A DNA stretch of 41,233 nucleotides from Gemmatimonadota bacterium (GTDB lineage Bacteria > Gemmatimonadota > Gemmatimonadetes > Palauibacterales > Palauibacteraceae): contig CP070670.1 of the NCBI GenBank assembly GCA_020351855.1, forward strand, positions 865,679 to 906,911, written 5' to 3'. Position 1 is the first letter of the stretch. Each line of letters begins with the position of its first letter. The notes under the pieces were generated by a model. It did no database searches and was not told the origin of the DNA. It worked only from the letters and a program-made list of their open reading frames with translations. A program made the translations under genes and the position numbers. This document shows, in pieces, positions 18,926 through 19,759 of this stretch.

Positions 18926-19759
18926 TCAGTCCATCAGCAGGGGCCGGTTCTTGTCACCGCGCACGCGGGCCAGCGTGTCGGGATCGGGGCCGCCTTCGCT
19001 GCCGCGACGCGCTTCGGGATCCCAGCCGTCCCAGTCGGGCTCGACCCGGCTCCTCCAGACGCCGCTCGAATCTGCCTCTGCGAACTCCAGCCCGACGCTC
19101 GCCAACACCGGACCCACCCGCTCCAGCCAACGCGCCCTCAGCCCCGCCGCGTCACGATCCGTGATCGCCTCCTGGCACAGGACGAGGCCCGCCGCGTCGC
19201 CTGGCGGACCGAACCAGCGGAGACAGGCCTCCCACACGGGCACGAACGCGCGTTGCATGGCCTCCCGGCCGGCCGCCGTGCCGCCCAGGCGGGCCACCCA
19301 GCCGCGCCCGTGCTCGAAGTGGAACCGCTCCTCGTCCAGGAGCTTGCTCACCTTGTAGTGCAGGGGCTCGAAGCGGCTCTCGGCCATGGCCTCGAACTGG
19401 ACGGAGAGGGCCGTGTCGAGCAGGAGGTTGAGCGCCAGGAGGTCCGGCCAGCTCCGGGCCGGGGCGTCGAGAGACTCCATGTTGCGGTATTCGGAGGACG
19501 AGCGCTCATGCTCGAGCTGGCCGGGATCCTCGCCGAAATCTCGCAGCATCGCGTACAGAATCCGTCCGTGTCCCCACTCGTCCTGGGCCATCGCCGAGCA
19601 CGCGATCCCCGCCTCCAGGGCCGGCGCCCCGAGGATCCAGTCCGAGTAGCGCATCCCGAGCAGTCGCTTGTTGTCCGCCAGGACGAGAACCAGGGCGCCC
19701 AGCCGATCCCGCAACTCCGCGGGCAGATCGGAGGCCTTTGCGTACTTCTCTCCGGTCAC
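18926..19759 (-). CDS. paaC: Phenylacetyl-CoA epoxidase subunit PaaC
   Basis: 277-aa ferritin-like four-helix protein, the non-catalytic partner of PaaA in the classical complex that epoxidises phenylacetyl-CoA. Family features are LLDEERFHFEHGRGWVARLG and the helix ALVLVLADNKRLLGMRYSDW. Unusually it carries both E-x-x-H motifs: QDEWGHGR (Glu61, His64) and EERFH (Glu144, His147), plus Asp40 and Asp115 at the other two helix positions. As I recall the E. coli sequence, the first motif there reads DLLGQAR, without Glu or His. The mapping is by eye. GTG start; the gene is 28 nt after paaB. Alternative: a divergent second catalytic subunit. Confidence 0.85.
   Translation of the reverse strand: MTGEKYAKASDLPAELRDRLGALVLVLADNKRLLGMRYSDWILGAPALEAGIACSAMAQDEWGHGRILYAMLRDFGEDPGQLEHERSSSEYRNMESLDAPARSWPDLLALNLLLDTALSVQFEAMAESRFEPLHYKVSKLLDEERFHFEHGRGWVARLGGTAAGREAMQRAFVPVWEACLRWFGPPGDAAGLVLCQEAITDRDAAGLRARWLERVGPVLASVGLEFAEADSSGVWRSRVEPDWDGWDPEARRGSEGGPDPDTLARVRGDKNRPLLMD

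Follow-up and report, generated by a model that had tools for sequence, protein, structure and literature searches.

A PaaC-like protein encoded in a genome of the Gemmatimonadota, here called winC, carries the ligand residues of the related subunit PaaA at five of six places and has a lysine, Lys31, instead of the first glutamate. The DNA analysed, referred to below as the window, is the whole stretch of 41,233 nucleotides at positions 865,679 to 906,911 of contig CP070670.1 (assembly GCA_020351855.1). Across the alignments, the Lys-substituted C subunit is a lineage-wide feature. As a tentative explanation, to which slightly less than an even chance is given as a whole, it is proposed that winC serves as C subunit in an oxygenase of the PaaABC type whose lineage split early from canonical phenylacetyl-CoA epoxidase, in which the PaaA-like partner would catalyse and C would keep a constrained, Lys-substituted site binding one metal.

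PaaC has been described as the structural subunit and PaaA as the catalytic one (PMC4498308, in the portion covered). The series of C subunits with six ligands, with five plus Lys, and with one to three allows testing when and why a diiron subunit becomes a scaffold.

Metal-Site Positions in winC

The ruler for the site was the ligand set of E. coli PaaA, namely Glu42, Glu72, His75, Asp126, Glu155 and His158 (PMC4498308). On this ruler the alignments place Lys31, Glu61, His64, Asp115, Glu144 and His147 of winC (KEHDEH in one-letter code), and the six places are occupied in E. coli PaaC by Cys, Leu, Gln, Asp, Ala and His. The positions are collected in Table 1.

A preliminary description of this DNA had claimed that winC keeps an apparent diiron ligand set, and most of its residue assignments were borne out. 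Both motifs that it named, DEWGHGR (Glu61/His64) and EERFH (Glu144/His147), are found in winC and match PaaA ligands, Asp115 aligns with E. coli PaaA Asp126, and DLLGQAR is the first motif of PaaC in E. coli K-12. Likewise, the PaaA-like partner, winA, has all six ligands, with the numbering Glu44, Glu74/His77, Asp128 and Glu158/His161 correct by alignment. Asp40, taken there as the counterpart of winA Glu44, has to be given up, the aligned place being Lys31, nine residues earlier. Asp40 was ruled out as a sixth ligand, since 35 of the 37 degenerate PaaC rows have Glu in its column and the ligand column is that of Lys31; judged by the alignment, the Asp40 column is a C-subunit feature and no ligand. 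Thus, five of the six ligands are kept and conserved, but the exchange of the first Glu for Lys leaves the set incomplete, and therefore the sequence does not show the second diiron site that had been suggested. The set is unlike that of canonical PaaC, as had been said, although inside its own clade KEHDEH is the rule and no exception. As to whether the same motif is common in known inactive PaaC proteins, Glu at 72 or 155 appears in none of the 37 degenerate rows, His75 in nine and Asp126 in 28.

Table 1. Features of the window discussed in the text (numbering from the first letter of the window).
Feature	Positions	Strand	Basis
winC, PaaC-like subunit, 277 aa, GTG start	18926..19759	minus	open reading frame; PF05138; C side of tree
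Lys31 codon, aligned with the first ligand of PaaA (E. coli Glu42)	19667..19669	minus	alignments; invariant in 47/47 rows
Glu61 to His64 (E. coli PaaA Glu72/His75)	19568..19579	minus	alignment
Asp115 (E. coli PaaA Asp126)	19415..19417	minus	alignment
Glu144 to His147 (E. coli PaaA Glu155/His158)	19319..19330	minus	alignment
winA, PaaA-like subunit, 312 aa	20538..21476	minus	PF05138 E 2.9e-60; TIGR02156 139.2 bits
DUF59 protein, like N-terminal half of PaaD, 155 aa	20074..20541	minus	PF01883 E 5.1e-13; NF041868 93 bits, below cut-off 180
PaaB-like protein, 78 aa	19788..20024	minus	PF06243 E 1.4e-4, 22.5 bits, below cut-off 27; match in 86/87 loci
Zinc ribbon, like C-terminal half of PaaD, 85 aa	18659..18916	minus	PF23451 E 2e-16; match in 84/87 loci

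Gene Neighbourhood and Possible Substrate

The gene of winC belongs to a five-gene module that recurs in its relatives: among same-strand neighbours at 7 kb or less from C in 87 loci, the A subunit is present in 87, the DUF59 protein in 86, the PaaB-like protein in 86 and the zinc ribbon in 84. The 78-residue PaaB-like protein also scores 30.7 bits, below the cut-off of 57.2, against TIGR04031 ('Htur_1727 family rSAM-partnered candidate RiPP'), a family that may be PaaB-like.

The score of winA with the PaaA model TIGR02156 lies below the cut-off of 280. Moreover, the lysine bridge of phenylacetyl-CoA epoxidase (Glu49, Lys68) is missing from winA, which has Tyr51 and Ile70 at these places, and the A rows of the lineage share the change, with Tyr for Glu49 in 71 of 73 and Lys68 replaced by Ile or Val in 70 of them. 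Two further residues of E. coli PaaA, Lys103 and Phe108, have been named for substrate entry and orientation (PMC4498308); Leu286 is also named in that source, and the letter counted at 286 here, Trp, was left unused. Position 103 is Lys or Arg in all 73 lineage A rows and position 108 is Phe in 71 of them, whereas 95 of the 97 lineage C rows have Leu at 108, and 103 is variable among them (Arg in 24 of 97, winC itself included). On this pattern, the A subunit is likely the catalyst.

In the window's genome, which is 90% complete, no match to PaaE was obtained at E 0.001, and the matches to PaaK and PaaZ were weak, none of them over the cut-off; in 14 control genomes, the models of PaaK, PaaZ and PaaE gave 1, 2 and 0 matches over the cut-off, respectively. 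Taking into account that winA lacks the lysine bridge and that the genome has none of these three proteins over the cut-off, a role in phenylacetate degradation was set aside, and the substrate is probably other than phenylacetyl-CoA. The neighbours of the Thermus and haloarchaeal relatives (enoyl-CoA hydratases, acyl-CoA synthetase or benzoate-CoA ligase, aldehyde dehydrogenase and a 2Fe-2S protein) suggest that it is a CoA thioester.

Directly upstream of the module lies a gene for L-glutamate gamma-semialdehyde dehydrogenase (P5CDH; TIGR01236, 21673-23307). A link to proline catabolism through this adjoining gene was discarded, since a match stands beside the module in just 18 of the 87 loci. 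In the relatives of the window, the genes around the module are thus of little informative value.

Distribution of the Lysine-Type Subunit and Constraint on Its Site

Matches to the PaaC model, PaaA-like matches counted in, were found in 31 of 41 genomes (the window's own and 40 relatives), and KEHDEH occurs in all 27 aligned C-type rows from these genomes. A scan of named genomes, with patterns that favour the motif, found 150 relatives, and the best 80 of these 150 loci are mostly from Gemmatimonadota, with others from Bipolaricaulota/Acetothermia, a Fraserbacteria record, KSB1 and Caldithrix. The wider alignment has KEHDEH in 89 of 90 C rows, the remaining one being a fragment with X. An alignment of 47 rows, composed of the window and 46 of 63 listed stretches from a two-pattern scan, has 21 of the 277 window positions invariant, all six site positions included (hypergeometric 9e-8), with those around Glu61/His64 and Tyr38/Trp41 favoured because the two patterns cover these stretches.

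For a pattern-free check, 298 Gemmatimonadota genomes were searched with a profile, and 99 of them gave matches. The 94 C copies read from these (30 loci and 64 more) all have KEHDEH, and this agreement led to the rejection of a one-off oddity or an assembly error. Five of the 99 matched genomes fall outside the 94: G036 and G040 have the same set in the earlier alignment (L030 and L026), and each of G008, G210 and G303 gave a single, weaker match (E 4e-42 to 4e-31), which was not read as C. Two C genes contain one in-frame TGA each (G195:C39:354268-355035 and G091:C32:120157-120924). In four genomes of the phylum (G035, G051, G052 and G058), PF05138 is matched just once and weakly (E 3e-10 to 1e-13), which may point to a third kind of protein.

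Relatives are also carried by plasmids. The search of plasmids with the winC protein gave 71 records, 40 of them listed, and together with further searches 26 stretches were taken, which are of three kinds: Lys-type C (12), six-ligand C (9) and degenerate PaaC (5). Lys-type C, accompanied by a PaaA without the lysine bridge, is found in the bacteria Thermus (2) and Agrobacterium (2) and in the archaea Haladaptatus, Haloterrigena, Halalkalicoccus (2), Halostella, Haloarcula JP-L23, Halobaculum and a Natrialbaceae archaeon. The site reads KEHDEH in seven of these 12 stretches, KEHEEH in two, KEQDEH in one and KHHESH in two. The Halobaculum protein (KEQDEH) has lost a further ligand and kept Lys; the two Agrobacterium proteins (KHHESH; L152 4983-5753, L172 5001-5771) have lost further ligands and kept it as well. 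In the annotated Lys-type plasmid loci, the order is A, a DUF59-like gene, one or two small genes, and C, with a gene of about 60 codons often coming next; the Thermus loci have an extra small gene ahead of C.

Six-ligand C stands beside a PaaA with Lys68 in Haloferax (3), Natrinema (2), Natribaculum, Halorubrum, Haloarcula sinaiiensis and Deinococcus (L147, L149, L150, L156, L157, L159, L163, L173 and L174). All six ligand positions are kept in these nine rows, with Asp as the first residue once (Natribaculum), and the two proteins scanned against the PaaC cut-off of 133.35 exceed it, at 175.7 and 280.4 bits. Degenerate PaaC comes from Azospirillum, Saprospira, Rhizobium, Novosphingobium and Streptomyces. 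A further PF05138 protein, with the site EKHGEH and a long branch, lies near the canonical paa operon of Rhizobium grahamii (L160 7438-8217).

The 97 non-redundant Lys-type rows have a mean identity of 40%, and seven of 187 columns are invariant among them. Of the site columns, those of Lys and the last His belong to these seven, and entropy places the remaining four at ranks 8 to 16. In the 37 degenerate PaaC rows (mean identity 57%), by contrast, the last His alone is fixed among the site columns, the other five ranking 66th to 167th of 190. Because entropy ranks and invariance differ in this way despite the lower identity of the Lys-type rows, the site is, at the level of the aligned sequences, held under constraint in the Lys-type lineage and not in degenerate PaaC. 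Since so odd a set is kept in nearly all close relatives examined, the "inert" C partner probably still does something in this lineage.

Family Placement, Fold and Ancestry

The family model PF05138 (PaaA_PaaC) matches winC with E 7.5e-47 and 160.2 bits, against a gathering cut-off of 28.5, and the PaaC equivalog TIGR02158 gives 109.5 bits, under the NCBI cut-off of 133.35. Taken in the wide sense, as the C side of the A/C duplication with the site columns left out, PaaC includes winC (100/99), with the proviso that a rival grouping is not rejected (p-AU 0.062). Canonical PaaC, with its degenerate metal site, does not: five of six ligands remain in winC versus one to three of six in the 37 canonical rows. 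Nor is winC a complete diiron carboxylate protein of the pattern Glu, Glu-x-x-His, Asp/Glu, Glu-x-x-His, from which it departs at Lys31.

The structure of winC, predicted from the 47 rows with a mean pLDDT of 95.9 and a pTM of 0.93, is a helix bundle of the 3PVR type (Z 27.2 over 271 residues to 3pvr_A). The best solved matches of the model are PaaA (Z 27.2) and PaaC (26.4), in a tie, followed by SSO1313 (23.8) and BoxB (20.5); BoxB or an aldehyde-deformylating oxygenase as the nearest fold was dismissed, the fit being weaker than to PaaA and PaaC. The site positions sit in the predicted helices 14-39, 48-75, 104-124 and 131-158.

Trees were built with the site columns removed, as a quick tree and a careful tree of 97 rows, both unrooted. 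A and C rows form two sides, with support of 99 in the quick tree and 100/99 in the careful one. In the latter, Lys-type C is one group with moderate support (94/75), and degenerate PaaC and Deinococcus group together (100/98); six-ligand C is not one clade, and degenerate PaaC lie among its members. When window-type A and C are forced into one group, the fit worsens by 22 log units (p-AU 0.062), so that an A/C duplication of its own inside this lineage is disfavoured, not rejected.

The family tree that had been called for thus places winC on the PaaC side and outside canonical PaaC. The suggestion of a PaaC ancestral in form held in part: winC lies nearer the ancestral form, but the six-ligand PaaC of haloarchaea and Deinococcus fit that description better. 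Taking the A/C split as a duplication, the fact that these proteins keep six ligands indicates that the ancestor of PaaC probably had all six.

Possible Role of the C Site

In the explanation preferred here, in which we infer the metal content, the charge argument, the substrate, the partner roles and the role of the site, the PaaA-like partner would hold the diiron site and do chemistry on a CoA thioester, probably not phenylacetyl-CoA; PaaB would bridge, and the DUF59 and zinc-ribbon proteins may help metal loading. The C subunit would descend from the same old A/C duplication, from a probably six-ligand ancestor; canonical PaaC would have lost the site, and this lineage would have swapped the first Glu for Lys and then kept the rest. 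Most likely, Lys31 would occupy the position once taken by the first iron and its Glu, and a single divalent metal would still be bound by Glu61, Asp115, Glu144 and His147. Counting formal charges, a site of four carboxylates and two M2+ would be neutral, as would one of three carboxylates, one Lys and one M2+. A site of this kind would serve to stabilise the A/C dimer or to modulate the A site and would not itself be catalytic. Counted against this proposal are the rival A/C grouping, which the constraint test leaves unrejected, and the moderate support of the Lys-type clade.

The C site may instead be free of metal, a possible reading to which about one chance in three is assigned: Lys31 with Glu61, Asp115 and Glu144 would form a buried salt-bridge lock that replaces the cluster and firms the bundle and the A/C interface. 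All 97 Lys-type rows have the Lys, versus 93 to 96 rows that keep His75, Asp126 or either Glu; the Lys count is circular for the 12 plasmid rows (before thinning) labelled by the Lys itself and not so for rows labelled by best seed or for the 94-copy profile set. Class Ie R2 has replacements for three metal-binding Glu, Lys being one of them, and a metal-free R2 defined the subclass (PMC11846895, in the portion covered). Furthermore, Arg occupies the Lys31 place in 30 of the 37 degenerate PaaC rows, and Asp at 155 is confined to these Arg rows (16 of 30 versus none of seven), for which kinship may be the explanation, all 30 being from the window's phylum. Three carboxylates with one Lys would, however, leave a buried site with net negative charge, and both His are kept in nearly all rows, beyond the need of a salt bridge. 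The most diverged C subunits lose more ligands and keep Lys, which favours the Lys lock at least there, and KHHESH in particular fits a metal-free site better than one metal. For C subunits in general, one metal is considered slightly more probable than none.

It is improbable that the conserved residues are merely inherited and serve folding alone, in a site without special role: winC does have the same fold as canonical PaaC, yet canonical PaaC keeps that fold without them and has lost both Glu in every row.

Equally improbable is a working second dinuclear site in C, in which Lys31, N-carboxylated or neutral, would be a ligand and C would take part in oxygen chemistry. Five ligands are kept, and the six-ligand PaaC of sister lineages indicate that a complete set of ligand letters can be accommodated by the C fold. 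To our knowledge, however, Lys is no usual diiron ligand, and the Phe of PaaA at 108 is not retained in C. The irons of the E. coli-type complex have, in addition, been assigned to PaaE and PaaA, and none to PaaC, in the portion of PMC4498308 covered.

The particular form in which an N-carboxylated Lys31 supplies the missing carboxylate, giving C a second working dinuclear centre beside that of A, is very improbable. No N-carboxylated Lys ligand is known to us in a ferritin-like protein.

Relation to Known Systems

The nearest known system is 1,2-phenylacetyl-CoA epoxidase, PaaABC(D)E (E. coli PDB 3PVR and 3PW1; Klebsiella 4IIT), with which the module shares the fold, the A/B/C/D gene set and a six-ligand PaaA-like subunit. 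It differs from that enzyme in having Tyr/Ile for Glu49/Lys68 in A, five ligands plus Lys in C, the parts of PaaD as two genes, and no PaaE, PaaK or PaaZ over the cut-off in the genome. The haloarchaeal and Deinococcus proteins annotated as paaC are alike in being C subunits beside PaaA with the site kept; unlike winC, they have six ligand positions (Asp first once), and their PaaA has Lys68 and Glu49 (once Asp49). In the portions covered of the literature consulted, mainly open-access (including PMC4498308, PMC13186573, PMC2653477, PMC9493321 and PMC11846895), there is no mention of metal ligands kept by PaaC or of this lineage.

Class Ie ribonucleotide reductase R2 (QSK and VPK variants) resembles winC in its dimetal-type site, where Lys replaces a metal-binding Glu (PMC11846895); it is an analogy and no close relative, a radical protein in which three Glu are replaced. 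BoxB, the benzoyl-CoA epoxidase, has a related diiron fold with a weak sequence match (E 0.0084), and it is described as needing no structural subunit, unlike the Paa complex (PMC4498308). SSO1313 of Sulfolobus solfataricus (PDB 4MUD) is a relative of winC both by sequence and by fold.
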